DNA from: a virus
Virus record (IMG/VR): IMGVR_UViG_3300028920_001322
Span: 1-20,756 of that record
Length of the DNA: 20,756 bases
Strand: one strand, 5' to 3'
Shown: positions 2,992 to 14,797 of the stretch, piece by piece
Position numbering within the stretch: position 1 is the stretch's first letter
How the letters are laid out: every line of letters starts with the position of its first letter
Translations under genes and position numbers: made by a program
The notes under the pieces: generated by a model
Told to the model about the DNA's origin: nothing
The model's input: the letters and a program-made list of their open reading frames with translations, nothing else
Database searches by the model: none

Positions 2992-3498
2992 ATGTCAAAT
3001 AATTCAGATTCAATGCCGTGTTGGTGGTCTCCACAAATTGGCAAATTTATAGAAGATAATTGTCAATTAAGCTTCAGAAAAATATCCGTAGCCCTCAAAA
3101 AGGAAATAGGAGCAGACGTTTCTGAAACTTCACTAAGGCCCTTCGTGCGCGAAGCTCGGAGAGACCGACAGGAAGATAATGAAGCCCACATAGAAAACGT
3201 ACGATCAAAACAACTCCTAGCCTTGGAAGAAGCCGTTATTACGGAATTAAAAAAAAGTATTCAGATATTGCAAGGATACCGCTCAAAAGTGGAAGAAGCC
3301 CTTACGATGGAGGGTTCCGAAAGTAACACGAAACCATACTATGCCCAAGCTAGGATGGTAGAAGTTTACGAGCGCTTCGTGATAGATTTGGCAAAGCACC
3401 TAGTAGAAATGGGATCTCGAAATAAAATTATGGACATAAATATAGAAACAGCAGACGGCAAAAAATCTCTAGCCGACATTCTGAATGAAGAAGAATAA
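2992..3498 (+). CDS. Small terminase subunit candidate
   Basis: 168 residues, first gene of the packaging module. The N-terminal part (about residues 20-60) looks like a helix-turn-helix (SFRKISVALKKEIG, then SETSLRPFVREARR), fitting recognition of the packaging site. It is followed by long charged helices (SKQLLALEEAVITELKK, YYAQARMVEVYERFV) suited to oligomerisation, and a short tail (DGKKSLADILNEEE) that could contact the large subunit. Size, domain order and position upstream of the large terminase match the small terminase role: ring-forming DNA recognition and modulation of the ATPase. No sequence motif proves it, since small terminases are poorly conserved. Ribosome-binding site GGTGAT, five bases before ATG. 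Confidence 0.65.
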   Translation: MSNNSDSMPCWWSPQIGKFIEDNCQLSFRKISVALKKEIGADVSETSLRPFVREARRDRQEDNEAHIENVRSKQLLALEEAVITELKKSIQILQGYRSKVEEALTMEGSESNTKPYYAQARMVEVYERFVIDLAKHLVEMGSRNKIMDINIETADGKKSLADILNEEE

Positions 3499-3507
3499 AA
3501 ATATTAT

Positions 3508-3530
3508 GGATTCTTTTTATTCTTTTTCCC
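3508..3530 (+). terminator. T-rich stretch after small terminase gene
   Basis: Two T5 clusters separated by a few bases directly follow the plus-strand stop codon at 3498 and overlap the 3' end of the convergent minus-strand gene. Oligo-T tracts on the non-template strand are intrinsic terminators in archaea. Whether it stops or only weakens transcription of the downstream virion genes is not visible. Confidence 0.35.
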
Positions 3531-3693
3531 GTCTCCAATCGGCCACGGTTCGTCTGCCAGAAGCGTATTCTGATATATGGCGTTCTACATCTCTGTGGTG
3601 TGATTTGGCTTCTTCTTTAGACTCAAACCCCCCACATCGCCACATGGAATCGTTCCATGTCCATTTATTGTTCTTTTCGGTAATTTTCAACAT
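3517..3693 (-). CDS. Minus-strand cassette 1: small hypothetical protein, 58 aa
   Basis: The start is ATG 3693 with GAGGTG seven bases upstream; a GTG at 3702 overlaps that site and is less likely. The protein begins MLKITEKNNKWTWND, continues with an MWRCGGF turn, then a basic, His-containing helix (SKEEAKSHHRDVERHISEYA) and ends RRTVADWRREKE. It resembles a very small beta-beta-helix protein, perhaps nucleic-acid binding; family not recognised. It lies alone between two plus-strand virion genes, is convergent with the small terminase gene, and has its own archaeal promoter at 3737-3758, so it can be expressed independently of the head operon. Confidence 0.6.
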   Translation of the reverse strand: MLKITEKNNKWTWNDSMWRCGGFESKEEAKSHHRDVERHISEYASGRRTVADWRREKE

Positions 3694-3736
3694 CTGATAC
3701 ACCTCTTAATCCTTACAATACATAATAGGACTCGTA

Positions 3737-3758
3737 AGTATATATACTTTTCGGTGGT
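3737..3758 (-). promoter_or_regulatory. Archaeal BRE/TATA promoter for cassette 1
   Basis: On the minus strand this reads ACCACCGAAA (BRE) then AGTATATATACT (TATA, a perfect 12-base palindrome at 3737-3748). The TATA centre is about 50 bases from ATG 3693, giving a leader of roughly 25 bases that contains GAGGTG. The BRE end overlaps the GGTGGT ribosome-binding site of the plus-strand gene starting at 3762. The palindromic TATA could in principle fire both ways, but plus-strand spacing to ATG (about 20 bases) is short. Confidence 0.75.
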
Positions 3759-3761
3759 CGC

Positions 3762-4397
3762 ATGTCAGAAATACCAGATGCACTTTTTCCCACTGACAAT
3801 CAGCTAGATATCCCAGTTCTGAAATTGGATCTGCAAGCAGATTATTTAGATTTGCCGTTCGTCCCATATGGAAGCATAGGAAGATCAAGAAAGATGAATG
3901 GAACTTATCATTTCTATGTAGATGATAGACATTTTAGTGCATTGTGGAAAAATCCAGATAAGATTATAAAATCTGGGTGTGTTACTGTGGTAGAACCAAA
4001 CTTTTCCACATCAGAGAGCCAGCCATTAGCATATTCAATATACCAAATATATAAAAAGCGTTGGTTGTCGCGATACTGGCAGGAAAACGGAATTAGAGTT
4101 TTCGTTGATCTGAATGTTACTCCCAAATGCGAAGAGCTAAATTTTTATGGCGTTCCGGTTGGATGGAATGCATATGCTACGCGAGTCCATAAAAATACTA
4201 CAGAAGAAGAATTATTACATCAAGCCGATATAGCAAAATATCATTCTAGATCTTCAGATATATTATTTTTAGTATATGGTCATCGTAAAAGTATTGATGA
4301 ACTATGTCGCGAGCAAGGATGGATATACGTATCTGAAACATGGCCCAAACCGAAAGATTCAAACAAAAAGAAACATAAAATGAAAGTGGTGGCCTAG
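3762..4397 (+). CDS. DUF4417 family protein
   Basis: 211 residues. Recognised as DUF4417 from the run of conserved features: FYVDDRHFSALWKNPDK, then PNFSTSESQPLA, then the strong RWLSRYWQENGI motif, then FYGVPVG, then a C-terminal LVYGHRKSIDELC helix and a Lys-rich tail. DUF4417 proteins occur in tailed phages and prophages, often near terminase or head genes; their biochemical function is not known. Here it sits between small and large terminase and is followed after two bases by a Gly-rich protein, so the two probably act together. The start is ATG 3762, four bases after GGTGGT. Confidence 0.75.
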   Translation: MSEIPDALFPTDNQLDIPVLKLDLQADYLDLPFVPYGSIGRSRKMNGTYHFYVDDRHFSALWKNPDKIIKSGCVTVVEPNFSTSESQPLAYSIYQIYKKRWLSRYWQENGIRVFVDLNVTPKCEELNFYGVPVGWNAYATRVHKNTTEEELLHQADIAKYHSRSSDILFLVYGHRKSIDELCREQGWIYVSETWPKPKDSNKKKHKMKVVA

Positions 4398-4399
4398 AT

Positions 4400-4726
4400 A
4401 TGGCAAAAAATAGCGGCGGTGGTGGTCGCAGCGGACGATCTGGGGGGAAGGTCGGTGGAGGAGGAAGCAGTGCAGAATCCCCGCCTACCAGGAAAGAACT
4501 TGACGATATGAGACGCGACTCAAAAGACATAGAGAAGGAGATCCACAGCACGGAGCGTCAAATAAATCGATTGTACATGGCACCAGATTCAAAAAAGAAA
4601 GAAGCAGCACTTGAAACCAAATTAAGGAATCTGATCGCGAAAAAAGCAGAACTAGATACTACCATAACCAAAAGAATAAAGCAGTATCCAGGAGGAAGCC
4701 TAGAATACCTATTTGGGCATCGGTAA
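4400..4726 (+). CDS. Gly-rich coiled-coil protein, 108 aa
   Basis: Begins two bases after the DUF4417 stop, with GGTGG overlapping that gene's end. The first ~27 residues are a flexible Gly/Ser/Arg tail (SGGGGRSGRSGGKVGGGGSS), followed by a predicted coiled coil through residues ~35-90 (KELDDMRRDSKDIEKEIHS, NLIAKKAELDTTITKRIKQ). No catalytic motif. The disordered basic tail plus coiled coil would suit a DNA- or protein-tethering accessory of the packaging machine, but this is inference. Its TAA stop directly abuts the TAA of the convergent minus-strand gene (TAATTA). Confidence 0.6.
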   Translation: MAKNSGGGGRSGRSGGKVGGGGSSAESPPTRKELDDMRRDSKDIEKEIHSTERQINRLYMAPDSKKKEAALETKLRNLIAKKAELDTTITKRIKQYPGGSLEYLFGHR

Positions 4727-5212
4727 TTAGAGATTTGCGCCTATCATGGAATATATATCCCAATGGTTGGGATCGATGTCCATTGCTCTGGCAACTATGG
4801 CAGATATACTGATTCCATTTCCCTGGCCAACATCGATGAGATTTTCGGGGTCTTCGATCCCTTCATGGACTTTGGCAACGAGGGCGATTGCTTTTTGTTC
4901 CAGAGGAGTATCTTCGAGATCGGATGCTTTGATTGTTTCGTCATTCATGAAAGCTTGGAGTTCTTCATCTGGCAAATCAACTTCCTCGGTCTCTGAGTAA
5001 TTCTCAACGGCTTCTTTTTCGGCAGCCCATCCGTGGCCGTCATCGTCCCTATATATTTTCCCTTTCTCTTTTCGATCCACAACATACCTGCGAAGGTATG
5101 TCATCTCGTAGTATCCTTTACTGACCCCGTTTTTCTCAAACTGGTCTATGATTTTGCCTTCGAGTTGTACCTTCAACCATATCTTTTCTATATCGTTTGG
5201 ATGTTTGTACAT
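4727..5212 (-). CDS. Minus-strand cassette 2: acidic hypothetical protein, 161 aa
   Basis: The start ATG 5212 has GGAGATG eight bases upstream, and a BRE/TATA promoter lies at 5247-5266. The N-terminal ~60 residues mix charged strands and a basic YLRRYVVDRKEKGK segment; the central part is strongly acidic (EEVDLPDEELQAFMNDE); the C-terminal part contains ENLIDVGQGNGISISAIVA and a helix ending near ANL. GC content looks higher than in the flanking virion genes, which would fit separate acquisition. Not recognised. The cassette is an individually promoted gene between the Gly-rich protein and the terminase ATPase, with stops abutting at 4726/4727. Confidence 0.6.
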   Translation of the reverse strand: MYKHPNDIEKIWLKVQLEGKIIDQFEKNGVSKGYYEMTYLRRYVVDRKEKGKIYRDDDGHGWAAEKEAVENYSETEEVDLPDEELQAFMNDETIKASDLEDTPLEQKAIALVAKVHEGIEDPENLIDVGQGNGISISAIVARAMDIDPNHWDIYSMIGANL

Positions 5213-5246
5213 TATGTTTCATCTCCAATACATACATTGTCTTGAG

Positions 5247-5266
5247 AGTATATATACTTTTCGGTG
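5247..5266 (-). promoter_or_regulatory. Archaeal BRE/TATA promoter for cassette 2
   Basis: The minus strand reads CACCGAAA then AGTATATATACT (same palindrome as at 3737-3748), followed by CTCAAGACAATG, a post-TATA sequence also found at the other cassette promoters. The TATA centre to ATG 5212 is about 41 bases. The BRE overlaps the GGTG that precedes the plus-strand terminase start at 5275. Confidence 0.75.
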
Positions 5267-5274
5267 CGCGATCC

Positions 5275-6138
5275 ATGACAACTCAAGCAGAGAAACTCAG
5301 AGAAAAGGGGCCGATCTTTTTCTGTGAAAAAATTCTTGGAACAGAATTATATCAGTACCAAAAAGATATTATTAATGCAGTATTTGAAAACCCGCGTGTG
5401 ACGGTTCGATCTGGAAATGCGGCTGGGAAGACTTACCTAGCTGCGAATTTGATTTTATCATTTTTATATTTAAACAGTCCGAGCGTTGTAATTTCGACTG
5501 CTCCGACATACAACCAGGTAGAAAAACTGATCTGGAAGGAAATTCGTACATTGTATCATGGGGCAAATGATAGAATTGTGGGGGGATTGGGGGGGACGCT
5601 GCTTCCAAGAGCCCCCGAACTGTACTTAACAAACAAATGGTTCGCGATCGGTCTATCAACAAACCAGCCAGAACGTTTACAGGGATACCATGAAGAAAAC
5701 TTATTGTTAGTTGTTGATGAAAGTTCCGGTATAAAAGATGACATTTTCGAGGCCGCACAGCGAATACTGACAAGTAAAAATACTCATATTTTACAAATCG
5801 GGAACCCAAACCCGCCAAAAGAGACCACCGGAAATTATTTTTATGATTCATTTAACAGCGAAATATACAAAAAATTTAATATTAATGCATTTGACACTAT
5901 AAACTTTACTACATTTGGCATAACTCAAGAAGATATAGAATCTGGAAAATGGAAAGAGAAGATAGGCAATAGTAAACTCCCATCTCCCTATCTCGTAACT
6001 CCTCAGTGGGTTGATGCTATGTCCACTCAATGGGGAATCGATAGTGCTGCATACAGTATTTCGGTACTTGGAGAATATCCCAAAGATGGCGCCAACAACT
6101 TGATTCCCGTAGAATGGCTTAGGGCTGCAACTCAGTAA
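5275..6138 (+). CDS. terL: Large terminase, ATPase half (split gene)
   Basis: 287 residues, cytoplasmic motor ATPase that drives DNA into the procapsid. Visible: an adenine-contacting YQYQKD near residue 27, Walker A SGNAAGKT at residues 46-53, STAPTYNQVEKLIWKE at 74-89, the LQGYHEENLLLVVDES Walker B block at 135-150 with the catalytic Glu, and coupling motif IGNPNPP at 175-181. It ends at WLRAATQ-TAA, precisely where the linker to the nuclease domain is expected. The nuclease domain is encoded by a separate gene beyond a tRNA. The chosen start ATG 5275 follows the TTTTCGGTG motif; upstream in-frame codons lie in the promoter of the minus-strand cassette. The stop is TAA, so amber suppression or pyrrolysine cannot join the halves. 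Confidence 0.9.
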   Translation: MTTQAEKLREKGPIFFCEKILGTELYQYQKDIINAVFENPRVTVRSGNAAGKTYLAANLILSFLYLNSPSVVISTAPTYNQVEKLIWKEIRTLYHGANDRIVGGLGGTLLPRAPELYLTNKWFAIGLSTNQPERLQGYHEENLLLVVDESSGIKDDIFEAAQRILTSKNTHILQIGNPNPPKETTGNYFYDSFNSEIYKKFNINAFDTINFTTFGITQEDIESGKWKEKIGNSKLPSPYLVTPQWVDAMSTQWGIDSAAYSISVLGEYPKDGANNLIPVEWLRAATQ

Positions 6139-6161
6139 ATTTTATGTAAGCGTTTCGGTTG

Positions 6162-6234
6162 GCCAACATAGCTCAATTGGCAGAGCAGGTCCCCTGTAAG
6201 GACCAGGTTGTCGGTTCGATTCCGGCTGTTGGCT
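6162..6234 (+). tRNA. tRNA-Thr (anticodon UGU), with C33
   Basis: A full 73-nt cloverleaf: acceptor GCCAACA/TGTTGGC (7 bp), D stem GCTC/GAGC, anticodon stem GGTCC/GGACC (6188-6192 with 6200-6204), loop CCTGTAA (6193-6199), 5-nt variable region, T stem GTCGG/CCGGC with loop TTCGATT. Anticodon 6195-6197 is TGT, reading ACA (threonine). G1-C72, C2-G71 and discriminator U73 agree with archaeal tRNA-Thr; CCA is not encoded. The near-universal U33 before the anticodon is C here, which is rare. It lies 23 bases after the ATPase-half stop and 21 bases before the nuclease-half start, and is preceded by a GTTTCGGTTGG sequence like that before many virion genes. Confidence 0.93.
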
Positions 6235-6255
6235 TTATACTATTTGGTGAATAAT

Positions 6256-6834
6256 ATGCCTAATATAATATTTGGTGCGGACATTGCCAGATTTGGGGAA
6301 GACAGTTCCGTAATCGCTATCAGAGAAGATAATAGAGTTCTACCATTAATAATATATAATAAACTTGATACAATGGCGATCGCGAACACCATAGGGATTC
6401 ATGCAGATGAATATCAACCGTCATCAATTTTTGTAGATGTTATTGGCGTTGGGAGTGGTGTTGTAGATCGCTTGGCTCAAGTAGGGTATCCGGTCGTTGG
6501 GGTCAACGTGGCCGAAAAATCGCATTTTCCTGAGAAGTTCACAAATTTGAAATCTGAGTTATGGTGGAATCTCAGAATACAATTAAATCCAAAATATAAT
6601 AATCCCATAAAAATTCCTGATGATAAGTTGTTGTTTGATGAATTACGCAGAACGTCTTATATATATGATGAAAAGGGGCGCTTACGAATAGAAAAGAAAG
6701 ATAAAATAAAAAAGATGTTGGGTCGGTCTCCCGACAGAGCAGACGCAGTAGTTCTGGCCGCGATCAATTCCGTTGGGGAATCCGGCAAGGGCTCCGACGT
6801 TGGCTTAAAATCCAATATGGAGCTACCCTGGTAG
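6256..6834 (+). CDS. terL: Large terminase, nuclease half (split gene)
   Basis: 192 residues with an RNase H-like terminase nuclease fold that cuts concatemeric DNA at initiation and termination of packaging. The three acidic metal-binding sites are present: GADIARFGED (Asp9), FVDVIGVGSG (Asp61) and RSPDRADAV (Asp160/Asp163), plus KSELWWNLRIQL and the YPVVGVNV strand. Together with the 287-residue ATPase half the length (479) equals a normal large terminase. The start ATG 6256 has GGTGA six bases upstream; an earlier in-frame codon at 6208 lies inside the tRNA and is rejected. The 3' end overlaps a convergent minus-strand gene by 12 bp. Confidence 0.88.
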   Translation: MPNIIFGADIARFGEDSSVIAIREDNRVLPLIIYNKLDTMAIANTIGIHADEYQPSSIFVDVIGVGSGVVDRLAQVGYPVVGVNVAEKSHFPEKFTNLKSELWWNLRIQLNPKYNNPIKIPDDKLLFDELRRTSYIYDEKGRLRIEKKDKIKKMLGRSPDRADAVVLAAINSVGESGKGSDVGLKSNMELPW

Positions 6835-6945
6835 GTCGCATTCGCAAAACTGTTCTGGATTGAACATAGCTTCTCTTTCTTGTTGGCGGTCGTCTGTATA
6901 CCTAACAACCTTTCCACATTTCTCGCAAATAGTTTTTATTGTCAT
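6823..6945 (-). CDS. Cassette 3a: 40-aa zinc-ribbon peptide
   Basis: Short gene with start ATG 6945 and GAGGTGA eight bases upstream; that ribosome-binding site lies in the last codons of the preceding minus-strand gene. The translation starts MTIKTICEKCGKVVRYTDD and ends with FCECDLPG. Two cysteine pairs, CEKC and CEC, about 24 residues apart, can bind one zinc. It ends inside the 3' end of the terminase nuclease gene (12-bp antisense overlap). It is the third and last gene of a minus-strand operon starting at 7365. Function unknown; small viral zinc ribbons often bind nucleic acid or inhibit host proteins. Confidence 0.6.
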   Translation of the reverse strand: MTIKTICEKCGKVVRYTDDRQQEREAMFNPEQFCECDLPG

Positions 6946-6946
6946 T

Positions 6947-7105
6947 TTATCTCACCTCTTCAGACCACATATCATTTTTTACCGGATCCAATCCTTTCGA
7001 TTTCGCAACTTTGTCAGCTTGATGCCGTATGGCATCTATATCTATTTCATCAAGGATAAAGTAATCTGCGCATCCATTCACAGTATAGTGTATTTTGTAT
7101 TTCAT
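6947..7105 (-). CDS. Cassette 3b: 52-aa hypothetical protein
   Basis: Start ATG 7105 overlaps the stop of the upstream minus-strand gene (TAATG), so translation is coupled. The protein begins MKYKIHYTVNGCADYFILDE, a strand-rich start, and continues with a helix IDAIRHQADKVAKSKGL ending VKNDMWSEEVR. The beta-beta-helix pattern and size resemble small phage proteins of unknown role. It stops one base before the ATG of the next gene and its final codons contain that gene's ribosome-binding site, strong evidence that all three genes are real. Confidence 0.6.
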   Translation of the reverse strand: MKYKIHYTVNGCADYFILDEIDIDAIRHQADKVAKSKGLDPVKNDMWSEEVR

Positions 7106-7365
7106 TACGCCACCCCTCGCCTTTCTTTTTCATCATCGTATCCCTTCACGAAAATCGCAACAAATCTCTCATGAGCTTCGATCTCGTCATCGACTATCAA
7201 AATGCCTTCTTGGATATCACCAGAAAATACTTCCTCTGCCACTTGATTGGCATCGACATTTTTTAGATCTTCATCATTTAATACTTGAGCCGATTCTCTG
7301 CCATATTCAAAGGCCATGCGGCAAAATTCTATTCGGTCGTACACACTAGTTTTCAAGTTCCACAT
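7105..7365 (-). CDS. Cassette 3c: 86-aa acidic hypothetical protein
   Basis: First gene of the three-gene minus-strand operon. Start ATG 7365 has GAGGT about nine bases upstream, and the promoter is at 7408-7426. The protein is mainly helical and acidic (YDRIEFCRMAFEYGRESAQ, NDEDLKNVDANQVAEEVF), with a central strand GILIVDDEIEAHERFVAIF and a charged tail. No recognised domain. The leader and promoter are nearly identical to those of the unrelated minus-strand gene at 11019-11306, implying shared control. Confidence 0.6.
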   Translation of the reverse strand: MWNLKTSVYDRIEFCRMAFEYGRESAQVLNDEDLKNVDANQVAEEVFSGDIQEGILIVDDEIEAHERFVAIFVKGYDDEKERRGVA

Positions 7366-7373
7366 TTTTTTAT

Positions 7374-7417
7374 ACCTCGTATTTCTACAATACTACATTG
7401 TCTTTAGAGTATATATA
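7374..7417 (-). repeat. Promoter-leader repeat, copy 1
   Basis: 44 bases that match 11315-11358 with only two substitutions by eye. The segment spans the TATA box through the transcribed leader to the GAGGT ribosome-binding site, upstream of the minus-strand gene starting at 7365. The two downstream genes are unrelated, so the regulatory segment, not the gene, is what is duplicated. Confidence 0.85.
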
Positions 7418-7426
7418 TTTTTCTGT
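7408..7426 (-). promoter_or_regulatory. Archaeal promoter for cassette 3 operon
   Basis: The minus strand reads ACAGAAAAATATATATACT, then CTAAAGACAATGTA. The BRE is one base off the ACCGAAA of the other cassettes, and here no plus-strand gene starts next to it, so constraint from a plus-strand ribosome-binding site is absent. The TATA centre is about 48 bases from ATG 7365. Confidence 0.65.
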
Positions 7427-7457
7427 CCTTAGGTTTTCATACATAGAACATTAATTC

Positions 7458-7475
7458 TAAAAAAATAAATAAAAA
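7458..7475 (-). terminator. Oligo-T terminator after the 69-aa minus-strand gene
   Basis: Directly after the stop of the gene at 7478-7687, the minus strand reads five T, then ATTTA, then seven T. Such T clusters terminate archaeal RNA polymerase. It separates this gene from the downstream promoter of cassette 3. Confidence 0.5.
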
Positions 7476-7477
7476 GG

Positions 7478-7687
7478 TTAGTATTCTGTTTCCACGATAG
7501 TCCAAAACTTATAATCGTGTTCAGCCAGAATTTTACCCCCGTCAATTTTGTTAACTGACCATTTGTTTATATCATCATATTCTATCTTCCATATTCCCCA
7601 TTCTGGGTTATCGGTTGATACAACTTTGATTCCAGGCTCGATGTTCTCAGAAGTTAAGATTCCTTTTTCTGTAATTTTTGGGTACAT
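7478..7687 (-). CDS. Cassette 4: 69-aa beta-rich hypothetical protein
   Basis: The start ATG 7687 has GGTGAAATG upstream; an ATG four codons earlier is followed at once by a stop and is rejected. The sequence suggests a small beta barrel: ENIEPGIKVVSTDNPEWGIWK, IEYDDINKWSVNK, then FWTIVETEY, with a PG-K-V pattern like small SH3/KOW-type folds. It may bind nucleic acid or protein; no family recognised. It has its own BRE/TATA promoter (7718-7736) and an oligo-T terminator, so it forms a complete single-gene transcription unit. Confidence 0.6.
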   Translation of the reverse strand: MYPKITEKGILTSENIEPGIKVVSTDNPEWGIWKIEYDDINKWSVNKIDGGKILAEHDYKFWTIVETEY

Positions 7688-7717
7688 GTCATTTCACCAT
7701 GTAATACTTGTCTTGTG

Positions 7718-7736
7718 AGTATATATAGTTTTCGGT
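7718..7736 (-). promoter_or_regulatory. Archaeal promoter for cassette 4
   Basis: The minus strand reads ACCGAAAACTATATATACT, then CACAAGACAAG. It lies between two minus-strand genes with no plus-strand start nearby, which shows that ACCGAAA here serves as a BRE rather than as a ribosome-binding site for a plus-strand gene. The TATA centre is about 36 bases from ATG 7687. Confidence 0.75.
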
Positions 7737-7738
7737 AC

Positions 7739-8089
7739 TTAGCTTTCCATAGATAATAGTTGTTGCACTTCTTCAGAAAAGCGCTCCCGTGGTACAAATA
7801 CGTGAATTTGTGTTACTTGGAAGTTATTACATTTTCCAAATAAATGAACTATTTCTTCCTCCATAAATGCATACCGAACATACGTAAATGGTTGTGATCC
7901 ACAATATTCTCCATGATCTATTCCTCTGGCATTTCCAATAGTTGCGTGTTCCCAGTCTCGTACTTTTATGTGTTCCATTAGGGTCTCGACGATATCAGTT
8001 TCGATATTGTTCATATTGTATCCTATTATTATTATAGAATAATCTCCATTACGTATTATTGCCTTGTAGTCATTTTTTACAAAATGCAT
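7739..8089 (-). CDS. Cassette 5: 116-aa hypothetical protein
   Basis: Start ATG 8089; no clear ribosome-binding site, and the TATA centre is only about 25 bases away, so the transcript may be leaderless. The protein has an N-terminal strand pair (YKAIIRNGDYSIIIIGYNM), a helix, an RDWEHATIGNARGIDHGEYCG segment, then YVRYAFMEEEIVHLFGKC and a C-terminal QIHVFVPRERFSEEVQQLL. This looks like a compact alpha/beta protein. Not recognised. It sits directly before the portal gene, in the opposite orientation. Confidence 0.6.
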   Translation of the reverse strand: MHFVKNDYKAIIRNGDYSIIIIGYNMNNIETDIVETLMEHIKVRDWEHATIGNARGIDHGEYCGSQPFTYVRYAFMEEEIVHLFGKCNNFQVTQIHVFVPRERFSEEVQQLLSMES

Positions 8090-8108
8090 ATGGCATTATT
8101 ATCAATAT

Positions 8109-8129
8109 AGTATATATATCTTTCGGTGG
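8109..8129 (-). promoter_or_regulatory. Archaeal promoter for cassette 5
   Basis: The minus strand reads CCACCGAAAGATATATATACT. The BRE overlaps the GGTGGT ribosome-binding site of the portal gene (ATG 8135) on the plus strand. TATA to ATG 8089 spacing matches a leaderless mRNA. Confidence 0.7.
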
Positions 8130-8134
8130 TTTCC

Positions 8135-9649
8135 ATGCCTAAAAAAAATACTAATTCCAAATTACAAATTACAGAAAATGCAGCTGGGGCATCCGCAACA
8201 ACTGGACTTTTGTTTGCCCTTGATCCGTCGGACTCAGATTATATTGAGTTTGAACTAGAAGACTTGCGCAAAGCCCGAAAAAATGATACGGTTGACAGAG
8301 TTTTGCAGGCTTTGAAGGATTTTTCTTTTCAATTGGAGGACATAGAACCAATTCCACCCATCGATAAGGAAGTTTCTGAGGAAGAAATTGAGGAAGTCCG
8401 CCAAAAAATCCATCAAATAGACCGAATAATCAATACGGAGGAGTCCACGAAAGCTGCGTGGGACGACGAAATTACGTATGGATCGGGAATCTTCAATTTT
8501 AATTCTGCAACAGAAGATGTTACTGGGTGGAAGTCTCCAACGGTATTTAAATTATTACCTGCATATTCTTTTAGCGAAGCACCATCCGACTATATAGGAG
8601 ACACAACTAGATATAAGCAGTCCCAATTTTTGGAAGGAATACTGTATGATAAAAATGACGACAAATATATATATTACCAGAAACAGGGAACCATCAATAC
8701 AGAAATAAAAAATGAAGAAGTACTACACATAAAAAGTAAAATTGCAGACTTCCCAGATGGAAAATCCAGACTAATTAATATTATTCATTTAATAAAACAG
8801 ATGGGAGATATTGACGTTGCGCGAATGCAATGTATTCGACGCGCCGGCGCTCCAATAATTCTGTTTAAGATCAATCCTCCAGAGACCCAAATGGACTTAA
8901 ACTATGGATATAAAGATTCCAGCGGGAAGAATCTGTGGGCAACATACAAAGAACGCCACGAATATATACAGAAAGTTGCAATCAACCAAAGCAGATCTAA
9001 TGTATTCATTGTTCCCGATTGGTGCGAAGTCATACCTATTGACGTTTCTAATGTTTTGGAGACTGTTAGGGAAGAGTACAACGATAAAGTATTACGAGTA
9101 GTCCAATATTTCATATCGCGGGACTTTACCGAAAATTCCGGAAATGCTATCTCTCAGTCTGCGAAACCTGGATTGGACTTAATTAAGCTCCAAGCCGAAG
9201 GAAGAAGAAAAGAAATCGGCCAGCATTTTGTACAATTCTGGGAAAAGATATTAGCAGAAAATGGTAAAGAAGGGTGGACCGTATCATTAAACTGGAAAGA
9301 TTTGAATCCAAGAGATTTACTGAATGATGCAAGGGCCTCCGAGTTGTTACGAAAAGCAGGAGCCTTCACACTTAATGATATCAGAGAGGCTGTTGGGTAT
9401 TCGGAATTGGCAGATGAAGAAAGGGTCGAACTAGAACAATTGGGAAGCATCCCAGAAATGGATCCCGAAGAAACCGAAATGGAAGAGGAACCAGAACTTC
9501 AACACAAAATCGAACTGAACAAAAAGTACGATCTGGAAAAAGAGGGAGATCTGACCGAAGAAGAATTATCTGAACTAATAAAGGATTCTCCCCTAAACAT
9601 TCTGAGAGCGAAAGGGAAACTAGAAGCTTTTATGGATAGAATAAAATAA
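8135..9649 (+). CDS. Portal protein
   Basis: 504 residues, the expected size for a portal, the dodecameric ring at the capsid vertex through which DNA is packed and ejected. Features fitting the family: a helical N-terminal region after a low-complexity start, a long helix with acidic residues (EVSEEEIEEVRQKIHQI), the FKLLPAYSFSEAP and QFLEGILYDKNDD strand-rich wing/clip region, the EEVLHIKSKIADFPDGKSRL loop, IHLIKQMGDIDVARMQCIR stem helix, ISQSAKPGLDLIKLQAEGRRK, and an acidic C-terminus (EMDPEETEMEEEPE). It lies after terminase and before the Mu-F-like protein, the standard order. The start ATG 8135 follows TTTCGGTGGT; an in-frame ATG three codons earlier overlaps that site. Confidence 0.85.
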   Translation: MPKKNTNSKLQITENAAGASATTGLLFALDPSDSDYIEFELEDLRKARKNDTVDRVLQALKDFSFQLEDIEPIPPIDKEVSEEEIEEVRQKIHQIDRIINTEESTKAAWDDEITYGSGIFNFNSATEDVTGWKSPTVFKLLPAYSFSEAPSDYIGDTTRYKQSQFLEGILYDKNDDKYIYYQKQGTINTEIKNEEVLHIKSKIADFPDGKSRLINIIHLIKQMGDIDVARMQCIRRAGAPIILFKINPPETQMDLNYGYKDSSGKNLWATYKERHEYIQKVAINQSRSNVFIVPDWCEVIPIDVSNVLETVREEYNDKVLRVVQYFISRDFTENSGNAISQSAKPGLDLIKLQAEGRRKEIGQHFVQFWEKILAENGKEGWTVSLNWKDLNPRDLLNDARASELLRKAGAFTLNDIREAVGYSELADEERVELEQLGSIPEMDPEETEMEEEPELQHKIELNKKYDLEKEGDLTEEELSELIKDSPLNILRAKGKLEAFMDRIK

Positions 9650-9668
9650 TATTCGGTTGTGATATAAA

Positions 9669-10304
9669 ATGATTAAAAAATTAAGTATTTTATTTTTGTT
9701 AGTATGTATTTCTATGTCGAGCGCCACGTTGGAACAAGCTTCTGATATTACTTTATACTCAGGAAGTATTAACGCATATTACAATACTCCGGATTCCTTC
9801 GCAAAATTTCTTCAAGATGGCCAGGCTTCATATGTGTTTAGCAGCACATTAAATAAAAATGAAAGTATATTCGGTATGGAGGTTACTGGAAATGGATCGA
9901 ATGGTAGGTTTGCGGTTGGGTTGCTTCCAACAGACGCAGGAATTTCTCATACATTAAATATTAATGATGTTACTAAAATTAAATCCGATGTCTATGTTGA
10001 AAGTGTGCGCGAAGTAGACATAGAGGATGGAACTGACTTTAGGCGCGTTTTGACGGAGTATTCGGTTTTGGCCGATGCCGGATCTGGATTGATGACCGTC
10101 CAAAGATCAGAAGACGGAAAAATGCAGGATCAAGAGCGGGTTTACTTTGATGGTATAATTAATATAAATTCGACTGTATTTGAAGATTGCTTTGAACTAC
10201 CTGGAGAGGGAGAAGAAGATTGGCTACCATGCTTAGGTATGTTGGATTACCCCGACTGGACCGTCGAGATATCCGATGATTCATCTTGTGCTACTTGCGG
10301 CTAG
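9669..10304 (+). CDS. Secreted protein with Sec signal peptide, 211 aa
   Basis: The N-terminus is a clear signal peptide: KK, a hydrophobic core LSILFLLVCISM, and a likely cleavage after SSA (about residue 19). The mature part is beta-rich and Ser/Asn rich (LYSGSINAYYNTP, FGMEVTGNGSNGRFAVG), with an acidic C-terminus carrying several cysteines (DCFELPGEGEEDWLPC, SSCATCG) that could form disulfides outside the cell. It lies between portal and later head genes; virion proteins are normally assembled in the cytoplasm, so an exported protein here is unusual. Candidates are a surface-modifying or superinfection factor, or an adhesion protein. The TTCGGTTGTGAT motif precedes the ATG. Function not recognised. 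Confidence 0.65.
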   Translation: MIKKLSILFLLVCISMSSATLEQASDITLYSGSINAYYNTPDSFAKFLQDGQASYVFSSTLNKNESIFGMEVTGNGSNGRFAVGLLPTDAGISHTLNINDVTKIKSDVYVESVREVDIEDGTDFRRVLTEYSVLADAGSGLMTVQRSEDGKMQDQERVYFDGIININSTVFEDCFELPGEGEEDWLPCLGMLDYPDWTVEISDDSSCATCG

Positions 10305-10321
10305 AATGTTTCGGTGGTAAT

Positions 10322-10765
10322 ATGGTTGATTTGTCATACTTAAGAAATATATTAACTTCAGAATCGCCAAAAAAGATTCTGACTAGTACCCGACGTTCAG
10401 AAAAAACGATAGCGGGATTGCCGTTTCCTAGGGGGTTGCGTAGAACAATTGTATCAGATACAAAATATAAATTCTTCTCACAAGATGAATACTTGGGAAT
10501 ACTTAAATCCATAGATATTGGAAAATATGTAGCTGATTATTTAGATTGTGATGATAGGACCTTATGGGTTCTCGCAAATGTTAAAGCCAATCCTGAATTG
10601 CCCACATTTTGGGGGGCTGCGATCGGAGAGGCTAGGGGAAAAATCAAAGGCCATACAGTATATCATAGCCTAATTGTATTTTGGGATACGAATAAAAAGA
10701 GACACTATTATGAACCCACAACAAAAAAATTAGTAGATTTTGAACCAAAAGAAATATATATTTAA
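10322..10765 (+). CDS. Protein with Cys-Asp-Asp / His / Glu-Pro motif, possibly papain- or transglutaminase-like
   Basis: 147 residues; start ATG 10322 follows TTTCGGTGGT. The C-terminal 80 residues contain DYLDCDDRTLWVL, then GAAIGEARGKIKGHTVYHS, then YYEPTTKKLVDF. This order (CDD, GH..H, EP) resembles a group of phage proteins with a circularly arranged transglutaminase- or papain-like fold, in which Cys and His would form the catalytic pair. The N-terminal part is basic (TSTRRSEKT, PRGLRRT). If the resemblance holds, it could be a cysteine-dependent peptidase or crosslinking enzyme of the virion; alternatively a binding domain with lost activity. Recognised by pattern only. It overlaps the convergent minus-strand membrane protein gene by 4 bp. 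Confidence 0.5.
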   Translation: MVDLSYLRNILTSESPKKILTSTRRSEKTIAGLPFPRGLRRTIVSDTKYKFFSQDEYLGILKSIDIGKYVADYLDCDDRTLWVLANVKANPELPTFWGAAIGEARGKIKGHTVYHSLIVFWDTNKKRHYYEPTTKKLVDFEPKEIYI

Positions 10766-11013
10766 GCCAGCAATGCATTCACTACGGTAATAATCACGTC
10801 ATACGCTACTAGTATCAATACCATAATAACGCATACTATTGGTATCAACATCATAATGCATAATGGAATGAATAATAGAAATCCTGGTATAAAAAATAAT
10901 ACATTATGTCTTTCCTCTCCAATACCAATAAAAATTACTCCCAACAGGGCACAAATTATGGTAAATCCCAGGTGGATACCAACATCTAAATTAAGAAATT
11001 CTGTGAAGCCCAT
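10762..11013 (-). CDS. Cassette 6b: small membrane protein, 83 aa
   Basis: Start ATG 11013, with AAGTGAT seven bases upstream; a GTG at 11022 overlapping the previous stop is an alternative. Three hydrophobic stretches are visible: GIHLGFTIICALLGVIFIGI, NVLFFIPGFLLFIPLCIMML, and IPIVCVIMVLILVAYDVIIT. The last two are nearly continuous, so two or three membrane passes. The short charged loop GEERHN lies between the first two. It could be a holin-like or superinfection-exclusion protein, but neither is demonstrated. Second gene of the minus-strand pair expressed from the promoter at 11349-11368. Confidence 0.6.
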   Translation of the reverse strand: MGFTEFLNLDVGIHLGFTIICALLGVIFIGIGEERHNVLFFIPGFLLFIPLCIMMLIPIVCVIMVLILVAYDVIITVVNALLA

Positions 11014-11018
11014 GTAAA

Positions 11019-11306
11019 TCACTTATATCCATCGTGATCGTCCATTTCCTTCAATATTTCCGCCACCTCCATCGATCGGATCATTTCAGCGGCTTCTGTC
11101 GCCGTTCCGAACTCTTCAGTGTAGTACTCTCCCAAGGGGAGATCTTCAGTGTCCCCAGTGTCGGCGATCAGATCATTGAATGCGTCTTCGGGCGTCTCGA
11201 AAACAACGAGTTTTCGGAGAACCGCGTCGGCGAATTCGGGATCTGCTTCTTGCATTCGCTTGAATACAGCGAATTGCATTGGGGTCATTTCATACGTTTT
11301 TGTCAT
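11019..11306 (-). CDS. Cassette 6a: strongly acidic protein, 95 aa
   Basis: Start ATG 11306 with GAGGTG eight to nine bases upstream. The protein has roughly three times more Asp/Glu than Lys/Arg, is mostly helical (TPMQFAVFKRMQEADPEF, EAAEMIRSMEVAEILKEMD) and ends DDHDGYK. GC content is visibly higher than in the neighbouring genes, suggesting a different origin. Small, acidic, individually promoted viral proteins are often nucleic-acid mimics or inhibitors of host defence, but there is no motif to support a specific target. Its promoter and leader are nearly identical to those of the operon at 6823-7365. Confidence 0.6.
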   Translation of the reverse strand: MTKTYEMTPMQFAVFKRMQEADPEFADAVLRKLVVFETPEDAFNDLIADTGDTEDLPLGEYYTEEFGTATEAAEMIRSMEVAEILKEMDDHDGYK

Positions 11307-11314
11307 TTTCTTAC

Positions 11315-11358
11315 ACCTCGTATTTCTACAATACTACCTTGTCTTAAGAGTATATATA
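11315..11358 (-). repeat. Promoter-leader repeat, copy 2
   Basis: 44 bases matching 7374-7417 with two substitutions, spanning TATA box, leader and ribosome-binding site of the minus-strand gene starting at 11306. The coding sequences they drive are unrelated. Confidence 0.85.
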
Positions 11359-11368
11359 GTTTTCGGTT
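11349..11368 (-). promoter_or_regulatory. Archaeal promoter for cassette 6
   Basis: The minus strand reads AACCGAAAACTATATATACT, then CTTAAGACAAGGTA. The BRE overlaps the GGTTGTTGAT ribosome-binding region of the plus-strand Mu-F-like gene (ATG 11378). The TATA centre is about 48 bases from ATG 11306. Confidence 0.75.
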
Positions 11369-11377
11369 GTTGATATA

Positions 11378-11995
11378 ATGCCAGATAATAATATAAATTC
11401 AGAAATAAATAAGCTTATTGACAATCCCAAACTAGATAAAAAACTAGAAGAAGAAAATTGGGGTCTATGGGAATCAATTTGGACATTAGCAGCGCTCAAA
11501 TACTTTCAGAAAGGAGTAAAAATACAATCAGAATTATTTAAAGTTCCGCTTCCAAGTATGAAACTTCAGAATGACAAAGCCATGAAATATTTTGAAAAAC
11601 ACGGTATGGAATTAGTAAAAACGCTATCAGAAGCTGATAAAAACAGTTTTAAGAAAATTTTGAGGGATAACTGGAACGAAAATCCCAGAGTATTATCCAA
11701 AAAATTTAACGAAAGTTATACGGTGTCCGACAAAAGACTGTATACGATTGCCAGAACGGAGGCACATACGGCTTTCGAGGCAGCCAGAAACGATCTAGCA
11801 CAAGACATGCAGAAAGCAGGCAGACACGTAAAAAAAATGCACATCCATTCAGGGAACCCAAGACCGCGACCATCGCATCTCGCAGCTGATGGAGAAGTTA
11901 GGGAGCTTGATCAAGATTTTTCTTACGGGCAACCATTTCCATATGCTCCTCACTGTACTTGTATCGTTGAATATATTGATGCGGGAAAAAAATAA
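11378..11995 (+). CDS. Minor capsid protein, Mu gpF / SPP1 gp7-like
   Basis: 205 residues. The C-terminal half carries the Phage_Mu_F signature: LYTIARTEAHTAFEAARND at about residues 121-139, KMHIHSGNPRPRPSHLAADG at 153-172 and the terminal PHCTCIVEY at 191-199, with conserved Cys and His residues that may bind metal. The N-terminal part is helical and charged. Family members are minor head proteins near the portal, needed for head assembly or ejection. Usual length is larger (about 250-400), so this is a short version. It follows the portal module and precedes the prohead protease, the usual order. Start ATG 11378 is preceded by CGGTTGTTGAT. Confidence 0.82.
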   Translation: MPDNNINSEINKLIDNPKLDKKLEEENWGLWESIWTLAALKYFQKGVKIQSELFKVPLPSMKLQNDKAMKYFEKHGMELVKTLSEADKNSFKKILRDNWNENPRVLSKKFNESYTVSDKRLYTIARTEAHTAFEAARNDLAQDMQKAGRHVKKMHIHSGNPRPRPSHLAADGEVRELDQDFSYGQPFPYAPHCTCIVEYIDAGKK

Positions 11996-12048
11996 AATTC
12001 TGCATATAATGTATTATGTTCCTAAAGTATTTAAGGGTTTTGGTCAAC

Positions 12049-12288
12049 ATGTCATATACAGATCAAGATTTCGAAAATGATTGTTGGGATTGGTTTCGCG
12101 ATGTTACGGAAAAATATAACAACATACCGAATATTATAATCAAATTGACATATGGAAATGGAGATACTGACATATTGACTGGATGGAATGCTGTTGAATT
12201 TGAAGATCCAAGTCCATATACCCCGAAACAAATTGATTTTTTTAGGCATTGTGTAGAAGTATATCGTAAAAATCCCATAGAATGGTAG
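12049..12288 (+). CDS. Small acidic, Trp-rich hypothetical protein, 79 aa
   Basis: The start ATG 12049 has GGTTTTGGTC upstream, a weak ribosome-binding region; earlier in-frame ATG at 12016 has none. The protein begins MSYTDQDFENDCWDWFRD, has a strand-turn-strand IIIKLTYGNGDTDILTGWNAV, and ends with a helix IDFFRHCVEVYRK. Looks like a small alpha/beta protein. Family not recognised. It follows the Mu-F-like gene by 53 bases, on the same strand, and its stop is directly followed by a structured region. Confidence 0.55.
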   Translation: MSYTDQDFENDCWDWFRDVTEKYNNIPNIIIKLTYGNGDTDILTGWNAVEFEDPSPYTPKQIDFFRHCVEVYRKNPIEW

Positions 12289-12289
12289 A

Positions 12290-12389
12290 GACAGAGAGGG
12301 GCGTTAATCCTCCCTGTCAGAGGCTAGAAAATGGCTGATAATTTGGAGGGAATGAGTAGAGGCATGGGGTAGCAATCCCACACCTCCAA
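12290..12389 (+). ncRNA. Structured intergenic element, possible small RNA or bidirectional terminator
   Basis: Two independent folds are visible. The first, 12290-12318, pairs GACAG with CTGTC and GAGG with CCTC across a single A/C mismatch, with a loop of about nine bases. The second, 12343-12389, pairs TTGGAGG (12343-12349) with CCTCCAA (12383-12389) and contains an inner hairpin TGGGG/TCCCA around TAGCAA (12365-12380). The second is like an acceptor stem with an adjacent T-arm-like hairpin but has no D or anticodon arm. No open frame covers the region. It lies between a plus-strand gene end and a convergent minus-strand gene end. A folded RNA or a terminator are both possible; orientation is uncertain. 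Confidence 0.45.
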
Positions 12390-12413
12390 TACTATATGTG
12401 TAGTTAATGTTAT

Positions 12414-12917
12414 TTATACCTTTTGGTCTATGACTACTTTAGATCGGGTTTTATTTGAATATAAACAATCTGAATAAAATTCATCTAATAATTGTTCATG
12501 GGGGGCATCCTGAATGTCAATATCATCAAATGGATATGGAAGTCTTTGATTTTCTTCATGAAGTATTTTTGCAAATAAATACTGTAAACATTTCATATGC
12601 TCAAACCGAATGGGAGTTTTTCTGCAATATCCAGCATAAATGGTTACAATTTCTGCACAAGTTGGAGATTCCATTATTAATTTTATGTCTTTTTGTGGAG
12701 TTTTGTCTGTTATTTTTGACAGTCTGCTAGAAATCTCAATACAATGGTTCCTAAACATAAAGTCTGGATAATCCATCAATATGTCTGATTGATACGCCAA
12801 AAAACAGCGATTATGTAAAGAATCCTTGGGGTATTGTTCAAGAATTTCTTCACATATTCCAATTTTGTTCAGTATGTCAGGTATTTCCGTTTTGTTCAGT
12901 ATGTCAGGTATTTCCAT
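12414..12917 (-). CDS. Cassette 7c: hypothetical protein with N-terminal 9-aa tandem repeat, 167 aa
   Basis: Start ATG 12917, with a GGTGA about 20 bases upstream and a TATA box at 12941-12948 on the minus strand; longer frames run through the promoter and the upstream gene. The first 18 residues are an exact 9-residue repeat, EIPDILNKT/EIPDILNKI, caused by a 27-bp tandem duplication. The rest is helical with scattered cysteines and histidines (ILEQYPKDSLHNRCFLAYQ, SPTCAEIVTIYAGYCRK, FEHMKCLQYLFAKIL). No recognised family; an all-helical, possibly metal-binding protein. Last gene of the minus-strand group between Mu-F-like and protease genes. Confidence 0.6.
   Translation of the reverse strand: MEIPDILNKTEIPDILNKIGICEEILEQYPKDSLHNRCFLAYQSDILMDYPDFMFRNHCIEISSRLSKITDKTPQKDIKLIMESPTCAEIVTIYAGYCRKTPIRFEHMKCLQYLFAKILHEENQRLPYPFDDIDIQDAPHEQLLDEFYSDCLYSNKTRSKVVIDQKV
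12863..12916. repeat. 27-bp tandem duplication
   Basis: Units 12863-12889 and 12890-12916 are identical except for the last base. The duplication begins exactly at the start codon of the minus-strand gene and keeps the reading frame, adding nine residues to the N-terminus. This points to a recent slippage or recombination event. Confidence 0.9.
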
Positions 12918-12936
12918 GTTAGTATCTATGTCACCA

Positions 12937-13155
12937 TCACTTATATAGTTTTTGGTACTCTTCATACTTTTCATACATATCAATGTTATCTACTATGCAA
13001 TCCCGCGAAACCTGTATGTTGTTCATTGCCAGAATAAACGACAGTTCTTCGCGGGTTAGCTCATACTGAACGTTATATTCTAGTATGTCTTCTAGCTCGG
13101 TACAGTTCCCGAAAGGTACCAATAACAATAGTAAAACTAAAGAGCATTTATTCAT
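12937..13155 (-). CDS. Cassette 7b: small secreted protein, 72 aa
   Basis: Start ATG 13155, eight bases after GGAGAATG; an ATG three codons earlier is an alternative. It overlaps the upstream minus-strand gene by eight bases. The N-terminus MNKCSLVLLLLLVPFGNC is a signal peptide or a membrane anchor; the Cys at the end of the hydrophobic stretch is not a standard lipobox. The mature part is acidic and helical with tyrosines (DILEYNVQYELTREELSF, MYEKYEEYQKLYK). A small exported protein in a moron-like cassette could alter the host envelope or block superinfection (inference). Confidence 0.6.
   Translation of the reverse strand: MNKCSLVLLLLLVPFGNCTELEDILEYNVQYELTREELSFILAMNNIQVSRDCIVDNIDMYEKYEEYQKLYK
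12941..12958 (-). promoter_or_regulatory. Archaeal promoter for the 167-aa minus-strand gene
   Basis: The minus strand reads GTACCAAAAACTATATAA, a weaker BRE (ACCAAAA) with TATATAA, lying in the last codons of the upstream minus-strand gene. The TATA centre is about 28 bases from ATG 12917. No plus-strand gene starts here. Confidence 0.55.
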
Positions 13156-13396
13156 ATCCGACATTCTCCATTACGGTGGTGATCTTTTCCCCACAAAATG
13201 GGCAAAACTTGAAGGTTTTGGTTACATAATACCGATGATTGTTGTTGGTAATAATTCCTATGTTCATTACCAACGATTCTCCGTTCTGCCACATGAGATC
13301 CTGCATGGGCTCACAACAATATTCATATATGGTATCTTCTTCAATTTTTTCCTTCGCGGGGATGATCCGCGTATGGAATCTTCGAATTATTTTCAT
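13148..13396 (-). CDS. Cassette 7a: zinc-ribbon protein, 82 aa
   Basis: I place the start at ATG 13396 (MKIIRRFHTRIIPAK); the longer frame to 13441 would pass through the TATA box. A Cys-Cys pair (YEYCCEPMQ) about 35 residues before CPFCGEKI gives a zinc ribbon of the kind common in small phage proteins that end in CPFCGEKI. Between them is a beta-strand region (SLVMNIGIITNNNHRYYV). Such proteins are widespread and of unknown function. First gene of the minus-strand group, driven from the promoter at 13417-13436. Confidence 0.65.
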   Translation of the reverse strand: MKIIRRFHTRIIPAKEKIEEDTIYEYCCEPMQDLMWQNGESLVMNIGIITNNNHRYYVTKTFKFCPFCGEKITTVMENVGYE

Positions 13397-13416
13397 GTAT
13401 ATCATAACAACTACAT

Positions 13417-13436
13417 AGTATATATAATTTTCGGGG
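13417..13436 (-). promoter_or_regulatory. Archaeal promoter for cassette 7
   Basis: The minus strand reads CCCCGAAAATTATATATACT. The TATA centre is about 28 bases from ATG 13396, giving a very short leader. On the plus strand the same bases give TTTTCGGGGGAC just before a 13-codon mini-gene (ATG 13443). Confidence 0.7.
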
Positions 13437-13510: not shown

Positions 13511-14797
13511 TTGGTTTGGGATGCATCAGCCGCGAGAAAACAAATATTTAGCGGTGATAGAATCGACGAAGACGGAAAGCCAATCAAATCAAAATGTTCT
13601 AAGTATTTTTTACAAGTTTTGGGAAATGGAGACAACAAGGGAGATTATAAATATCCCATAGGTACCCCGTCGCAATTTCCAAATCGAGGAGCTTTGATTG
13701 CCGCGTATCAACGAGCTTCTCAGTTTGCTCCAGAATTACATTCTAAAATCAAGAATATGGCTAATAGATACGGCATAAAGTTTCCAGCAATCTCTCAAAA
13801 CGAGATTACAATTAACGCAGGGCTTGATACGGAATTTGGGGGCGGAAAGATACGGGTTCCGATGATTTTAATGAGAACGGGAATATACAACAATCTAGAA
13901 AAAGTTCCCGAACAATTAGAGGAGGCTGCACCTGGTTTTAATCATAGACCTATTACTATATTTTCGGAGGAACAGTTGGGACATACCGAAAATGGAGTTG
14001 CTACAAATAATACCGTCAATGTCGGAAAAATTGAAGGGGCAATTTGGCGAGAAGATACCCAAGATATTTTCGGATATGGGGTATTAGATGAATCGCGGAC
14101 ACCAGATTGGCTAATAAACCGAATAAATAATGGTGAAAATCTTGGAATATCTGCCGCATATTGGCATGATACCGAAGATAATATAGAGACTAATTATATA
14201 ATTGACAACGTATCAATTTTGGAGCCGCAAAAAGCAGCATGTGAGCCACCAAACTGTGGGCTCAATTTAAATACAAAAACAGAAATAAAGGAGGAAGATA
14301 ATATGACCATCGAACTTAATGAGAAGATCATTCTTGAAAAAATTGAACAGATAGCAGGAATGAAACAAAAAATTGAACAGAATGCCAAAGAAATGGCAGA
14401 ACTTAATGAACAAATTGAGGGATTCGAGGCCGAAAAAATTCAGATGAAGGAACAATTCGATGCAGATCTTAAGGGTGTCGTGGCCGAAAAGGATAAGGCC
14501 ATTGGAGAACTTACGGAAAAAATTTCTGGATACGAAACGGAGATAGAGAAATCCAAATTCCTGAAACAGTTCCCAGAAGGTGTCGAAGTTCCCGATGAAT
14601 TGATTGAAGCGTACATCAAGAATCCCGAAAATATTGTCAGAGAACCAGAATTAAACGAAAAATATATTAAGCTTATGACTCCCAAAGGCGGGGAACATAC
14701 TAAAGTTTCCGGCGAAGAGTTTCCGGAACAGAATAGCAAAAAACTTGAAGAGAGTAAAGAAGATGATGAGTTTTGGGAAACTCATTTCGGAAAATAA
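13511..14797 (+). CDS. Prohead protease fused to scaffold
   Basis: 428 residues. I choose TTG 13511 because AGGAGGTGAT at 13497-13506 is correctly spaced; a GTG at 13502 lies inside that site. Residues 1-90 form a small domain with YKYPIGTPSQFPNRGALIAA and FAPELHSKIKNMANRYG, similar to domains seen at the front of some prohead proteases. Residues ~110-250 resemble DUF2213-type prohead proteases: VPMILMRTGIYNNLEKVP, FNHRPITI (candidate catalytic His), VGKIEGAIW, LGISAAYW (candidate Ser) and VSILEPQKAACEPP. Residues 265-428 are a coiled-coil scaffold. The order protease, scaffold, decoration, capsid is standard. The catalytic residue assignment is by eye. Confidence 0.75.
   Translation: MVWDASAARKQIFSGDRIDEDGKPIKSKCSKYFLQVLGNGDNKGDYKYPIGTPSQFPNRGALIAAYQRASQFAPELHSKIKNMANRYGIKFPAISQNEITINAGLDTEFGGGKIRVPMILMRTGIYNNLEKVPEQLEEAAPGFNHRPITIFSEEQLGHTENGVATNNTVNVGKIEGAIWREDTQDIFGYGVLDESRTPDWLINRINNGENLGISAAYWHDTEDNIETNYIIDNVSILEPQKAACEPPNCGLNLNTKTEIKEEDNMTIELNEKIILEKIEQIAGMKQKIEQNAKEMAELNEQIEGFEAEKIQMKEQFDADLKGVVAEKDKAIGELTEKISGYETEIEKSKFLKQFPEGVEVPDELIEAYIKNPENIVREPELNEKYIKLMTPKGGEHTKVSGEEFPEQNSKKLEESKEDDEFWETHFGK
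14303..14797 (+). CDS. Nested scaffold protein from internal start
   Basis: Within the protease gene, in the same frame, ATG 14303 is preceded by AAAGGAGGAAGATAAT, a ribosome-binding site as strong as those of the capsid genes. Translation here gives a 164-residue acidic coiled coil (MTIELNEKIILEKIEQIAG, then long Glu/Lys heptads) ending in FWETHFGK. This is the layout of lambda C/Nu3, where a separate scaffold is made from the 3' part of the protease gene. The internal site is seen directly; its use is inferred. Confidence 0.65.
   Translation: MTIELNEKIILEKIEQIAGMKQKIEQNAKEMAELNEQIEGFEAEKIQMKEQFDADLKGVVAEKDKAIGELTEKISGYETEIEKSKFLKQFPEGVEVPDELIEAYIKNPENIVREPELNEKYIKLMTPKGGEHTKVSGEEFPEQNSKKLEESKEDDEFWETHFGK

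Follow-up and report, generated by a model that had tools for sequence, protein, structure and literature searches.

Minus-strand gene cassettes behind one shared predicted promoter in the head operon of a tailed virus probably infecting a methanogen

The head operon of a tailed virus that probably infects a methane-making archaeon is interspersed with seven minus-strand cassettes of small genes, all preceded by a single class of predicted BRE/TATA promoter. The explanation we favour, and consider rather probable, is that the cassettes are seven lineage-specific morons under one shared strong promoter, forming one regulon that is read by host TBP/TFB, is likely expressed before the head genes and yields takeover or anti-defence products. 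The window analysed here is a linear fragment of 20,756 nt (20.8 kb), IMG/VR virus record IMGVR_UViG_3300028920_001322. An archaeal host is indicated by the BRE/TATA promoters and by the relative vir525, whose host is given as Methanosarcinales.

Results

The exact ten-base TATA sequence TATATATACT (10/10) occurs seven times on the minus strand, at the first positions listed for P1 to P7 in Table 1. The pattern that includes the BRE, GAAAR-n-TATATATACT, was found seven times on the minus strand, never on the plus strand and never in 300 dinucleotide shuffles. Alignment of the seven elements gives ACCGAAAAn-TATATATACT with a fixed BRE-TATA spacing, in which C(-8), G(-6), A(-5), A(-4), A(-3), all ten TATA bases and a G at +15 are invariant. 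When each 20-nt element was scored with a matrix built from the other six, leave-one-out p values ranged from 2e-11 to 2.5e-8. In a scan of both strands of the whole window the seven reached 27-32 bits, against 15.9 bits for the runner-up (minus 2976). The latter is a degenerate copy of the cassette promoter at 2956-2991, before terS, that is followed by no convincing minus gene; it could be a remnant, or could belong to a plus-strand promoter. A first-pass annotation of the same DNA had counted at least eight alike minus-strand promoters and given positions for eight. Seven of these fall into the class described here, and the eighth, AACTATATAA at 12941-12950 (minus strand), was rejected at about 6 bits (p ~1e-4), below several plus-strand background scores. 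A promoter at this site is also not needed, since m9, m8 and m7 overlap and the single one at 13417 suffices.

Outside the core the elements are less uniform. Four of the seven carry CTnAAGACAA or CACAAGACAA downstream. Between cassettes 3 and 6 the 64 nt of control region up to the ATG, where unrelated genes begin, show 91% identity, which suggests that gene gain involved the copying or reuse of a promoter unit. A short ACAATgtagtATTGT palindrome lies at P3 and, imperfectly, at P6; it is present in two or three elements only. There was no stem-loop common to all seven, an operator palindrome uniform across them was found only in part, and no dedicated repressor was identified.

Table 1. Positions of the head genes, minus-strand cassettes and cassette promoters in the window.
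Feature	Position	Strand	Evidence and remarks
Terminase small subunit (terS), probable	2992..3498	+	32% identity to the L096 gene preceding L096 terL
Terminase large subunit, ATPase part	5278..6138	+	44-47% identity to TerL of vir525 and others; phrog_2
Terminase large subunit, nuclease part	6256..6834	+	42% identity to C-terminal part of vir525 TerL
Portal protein	8135..9649	+	phrog_12; 27-34% identity to relatives
Head morphogenesis protein	11378..11995	+	phrog_2468, 2.5e-17
Head maturation gene (protease), probable, before dec/MCP	13511..14797	+	26-31% identity to same-place L092-L096 genes; function by position
Major capsid protein (MCP), probable	15318..16280	+	29-32% identity to same-place genes of three relatives; function by position
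Cassette 1: m1, 58 aa	3517..3693	-	Coding score 0.30, other frames negative; between terS and DUF4417 gene
Cassette 2: m2, 161 aa	4727..5212	-	Coding score 0.35; stop abuts plus gene stop at 4726
Cassette 3: m3a, 86 aa (7105-7365); m3b, 52 aa (6947-7105); m3c, 40 aa (6823-6945)	6823..7365	-	Coding scores 0.20-0.31
Cassette 4: m4, 69 aa	7478..7687	-	Coding score 0.38; T-rich terminator-like run CCTTTTTATTTATTTTTTTAG past stop
Cassette 5: m5, 116 aa	7739..8089	-	Coding score 0.20
Cassette 6: m6a, 95 aa (11019-11306); m6b, 83 aa (10762-11013)	10762..11306	-	Coding scores 0.40 and 0.09
Cassette 7: m9 (13148-13396); m8 (12937-13164); m7 (12911 or 12968 to 12414)	12414..13396	-	Coding scores 0.12-0.19; genes overlap
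P1, BRE+TATA of cassette 1	3737..3754	-	TATATATACT, CCGAAAAG 5' of it; leave-one-out p 9e-10; TATA 5' end to first ATG 53 nt
P2, BRE+TATA of cassette 2	5247..5264	-	Leave-one-out p 2e-11; 44 nt to ATG
P3, BRE+TATA of cassette 3	7408..7425	-	BRE variant AGAAAA; leave-one-out p 2.5e-9; 52 nt to ATG
P4, BRE+TATA of cassette 4	7718..7735	-	Leave-one-out p 2e-11; 40 nt to ATG; BRE kept without a plus gene start
P5, BRE+TATA of cassette 5	8109..8126	-	Leave-one-out p 6e-9; 29 nt to ATG
P6, BRE+TATA of cassette 6	11349..11366	-	Leave-one-out p 2e-11; 52 nt to ATG
P7, BRE+TATA of cassette 7	13417..13434	-	Leave-one-out p 2.5e-8; 30 nt to ATG

The spacing between element and ATG fits archaeal initiation. 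In the methanogen Methanolobus psychrophilus ~19-22 nt separate the BRE/TATA from the start site, and leaderless transcripts make up ~16% of the total (PMC5378194). A TATA 5' end that lies 29-30 nt ahead of the first ATG, as at 8109 and 13417, would thus fit leaderless mRNAs, and the distances of the other five (40-53 nt) are compatible with a short leader that carries a ribosome site of the GGTG or GGAG type. At P1, P2, P5 and P6 the BRE bases are doubly used, their complement belonging to the TTTCGGT leader of the plus gene that follows. The possibility that the BRE is a mere by-product of this leader was rejected, since the element at 7718 retains it although no plus gene begins there. The TATA sequence TATATATACT is near-palindromic and hence readable on the plus strand as well. 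A bidirectional promoter was nevertheless discarded: the plus-strand TATA copies have no BRE, score ~4-10 bits and mostly start at or inside a plus gene. Among the plus genes, terL at 5278 could conceivably use such a copy.

Behind the promoters lie one to three small genes each (m1; m2; m3a-b-c; m4; m5; m6a-b; m9-m8-m7), in agreement with the earlier description. With a coding score based on codon usage and trained on the plus genes of the window, all twelve minus ORFs scored between 0.09 and 0.40 (plus mean 0.28) and their five other frames were negative or close to zero; the twelve look coding. The only terminator-like sequence of a cassette's own is the T-rich run after m4. The ends of the other cassettes directly adjoin those of plus genes or extend into them: the last 12 nt of terL lie within cassette 3 (6823-6834), and the stop of cassette 6 shares a TTAA with that of a plus gene (10762-10765). 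The GC content of m1, m2 and m6a is 44-49% vs 38% for the window, which would fit a foreign origin for some. Within m7 a 27-nt tandem duplication (12850-12903) gives a repeated EIPDILNK peptide. The 125-nt gap between converging genes at 12289-12413 folds into several hairpins; structured RNA at 12280-12420 was not significant against shuffles (z -1.6).

The cassette proteins have no similarity to each other or to the rest of the window and none has a confident match in Pfam, PHROGs, NCBIfam or PADLOC, in agreement with the earlier view that the genes are unrelated and mostly unrecognised. The same four collections gave no confident match to a known anti-defence family for any cassette protein; m9 matched the Lar restriction-alleviation family only with an E value of 0.06 over 13 residues. 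No homologues in phages were found for the proteins tried, m2 being without a homologue, and three cassette proteins compared with the whole records of relatives gave no match. By inspection m6b is hydrophobic and membrane-like, the start of m8 resembles a signal peptide, and m3c and m9 are small Cys-rich proteins. Structure prediction, which had been proposed as a check for each small protein, was run on m2 and m5; the AlphaFold2 single-sequence models were poor (pLDDT 47 and 59) and there was no significant fold match.

The elements sit among the terS, terL, portal, head morphogenesis and protease genes, and thus inside the head operon as originally claimed. The terL gene (5278-6834) is split in two, one gene for the ATPase and one for the nuclease, and a tRNA-Thr(TGT) at 6161-6235 separates them; the nuclease part is preceded by a ribosome-site-like leader of its own. 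Unlike in the window, TerL is a single ORF in vir525, L009, L010, L012 and others. The terminase region also holds a DUF4417 / phrog_940 nuclease-like gene (3762-4397). Near the contig end a short ORF (40-348) matches thymidylate synthase (PF00303, E 3.5e-8) over the C-terminal part of that enzyme and is either a fragment of the gene or a divergent relic.

Relatives of the head genes were found in three lineages: vir525 (Caudoviricetes sp., BK063673) with its near relative L022 (terL, portal, head, dec and MCP), L093-L095 (portal, head, protease, dec, MCP and downstream genes) and L096 (terS, portal, protease, dec and MCP). Identities are 25-53% and the head genes are in the same order. The terL and portal genes lie 1 bp apart in vir525, L022 and L096, whereas the same junction in the window spans 1.3 kb with cassettes 3, 4 and 5. 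Likewise, where the window has cassettes 6 and 7, L093 has a portal-head gap of 19 bp and the portal and protease genes of L096 are adjacent. There are no free-standing minus genes in the head modules of the three lineages, all coding-like minus ORFs of the relatives being within plus genes, and the cassette promoter pattern is absent from their records; one loose match occurred in a much more distant record. Searches of viral_contigs with the exact motif and with portal and MCP single-sequence queries gave no match, nor did a host genome search with dec and MCP profiles. Rather than being fixed in place among relatives, the cassettes are thus missing from all three lineages, and the proposal of modular accessory units holds, given this absence and, on sequence evidence, a promoter for each. 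The absence places the cassettes outside the ancestral head module as sampled, at identities of 25-53% at which recency is not datable. We conclude that the cassettes are lineage-specific units with their own predicted promoters, or morons.

Discussion

A control sequence common to seven cassettes, of a promoter class used by the cassettes alone, implies the co-regulation that the first-pass annotation had suggested. Host TBP and TFB would read all seven promoters strongly and together. The cassettes oppose the virion genes and their promoter is unused by the plus genes, so likely the cassettes would be expressed first and the head genes later; where opposing genes are flush-ended or overlap (4726/4727, 10762-10765 and 6823-6834), simultaneous transcription would collide. 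From this arrangement we infer early expression and a shared timing of the cassettes, whose products would most likely be small host-takeover or anti-defence proteins.

The elements could instead represent the strongest consensus promoter of the host, acquired separately by unrelated insertions, with no regulon and no common timing or purpose. BRE and TATA are general archaeal signals, and beyond the core the downstream block is limited to four of the seven and no operator is common to all. Yet the seven elements are identical throughout the ten TATA bases and over almost the whole BRE, no plus gene uses such an element, and the 64-nt identity between control regions 3 and 6 is more than a generic promoter needs; we regard this explanation as unlikely. 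The same two regions, ending at the ATG before unrelated genes, would also be in accordance with elements that serve mainly as shuffling units, like the PeSLs of T4-type phages, where repeated promoter DNA provides homology for swapping the gene behind it. A TATA-plus-inverted-repeat motif of halovirus HGTV-1 has been likened to PeSLs (PMC3950731). The cassette elements, however, have no stem-loop in common, only the short palindrome in two or three of them, and no relative was found with swapped genes at the same element. As their main role shuffling seems quite improbable, but it is compatible with the regulon we favour, as its route of gain.

Transcription from the minus promoters could also act mainly as antisense, running into the plus head genes and delaying these until late, the small ORFs being secondary. 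Read-through from cassettes that are flush with or overlap convergent plus genes would be antisense, and long counter-transcripts have been described in halovirus HF2 (PMC8707807). However, all twelve ORFs combine a coding signal with plausible translation starts, which argues that selection acts on the proteins, and cassette 4 is followed by its terminator-like run; we consider a mainly antisense role very unlikely. Coming back to the regulon, a fuller account of it, in which a methanogen-infecting tailed virus has a dispersed early regulon of new anti-defence families, lying antisense in a late head operon and with BREs that share bases of ribosome-binding leaders, is possible and we put it forward only tentatively.

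Tailed phages are known to carry morons, extra transcription units with their own promoter that lie between the genes of structural operons and are absent from relatives. The cassettes resemble these in all three respects: they are extra units between conserved structural genes, have a predicted promoter of their own and are absent from relatives. Classical morons are single and independently controlled, unlike the seven units under one promoter class in the window. In an archaeal tailed virus, halovirus HF2, the class I/II intergenic repeats contain BRE/TATA sequences that are functional promoters; their position is conserved among relatives and they drive early-middle or late transcripts (PMC8707807). 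The elements in the window are likewise repeated intergenic BRE/TATA sequences of an archaeal tailed virus but, unlike those of HF2, they do not recur in relatives, and they are dedicated to the minus cassettes of the head module. With the T4-type PeSLs and the HGTV-1 motif (PMC3950731) they share the arrangement of repeated promoter units before small dispensable genes, although no stem-loop/terminator common to the elements is joined to the promoter here, the short palindrome being absent from some of the seven.

The closest precedent appears to be the BRE/TATA regulatory sequence shared by early anti-defence genes of Sulfolobales viruses (Bhoobalan-Chitty et al. 2024, PMC11065993), with whose sequence features the window locus largely agrees. 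The viruses surveyed there were rudi-, lipothrix-, bicauda- and fuselloviruses; early expression was demonstrated for SIRV2, some of the genes were assayed, and the words 'methanogen' and 'Caudoviricetes' do not occur in the main text. The study looked for a motif shared within a genome, 30 nt or wider, with p below 1e-8. Our own 30-nt leave-one-out calculation, used in place of MEME/RSAT, gave p <1e-8 for five of the seven elements, 1.8e-8 for that at 3746 and 1.1e-7 for that at 13426. In both systems a virus-specific strong BRE/TATA is repeated before small, mutually unrelated and mostly unrecognised genes. The preferred TFB contacts, G(-6) and A(-3) as cited in PMC11065993, make up the strong TFB site, and here they are invariant in all seven elements. 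The locus differs in belonging to a tailed virus, in lying antisense in a head operon and in its TATA sequence, and its promoters and genes are predicted from sequence.

Promoter-guided discovery of anti-defence genes succeeded in the Sulfolobales viruses, and the window suggests that the same logic may apply to a tailed virus, one related to a virus from Methanosarcinales. It offers twelve mutually unrelated candidate proteins and points to where such genes may be searched for, on the opposite strand between the genes of the capsid operon.
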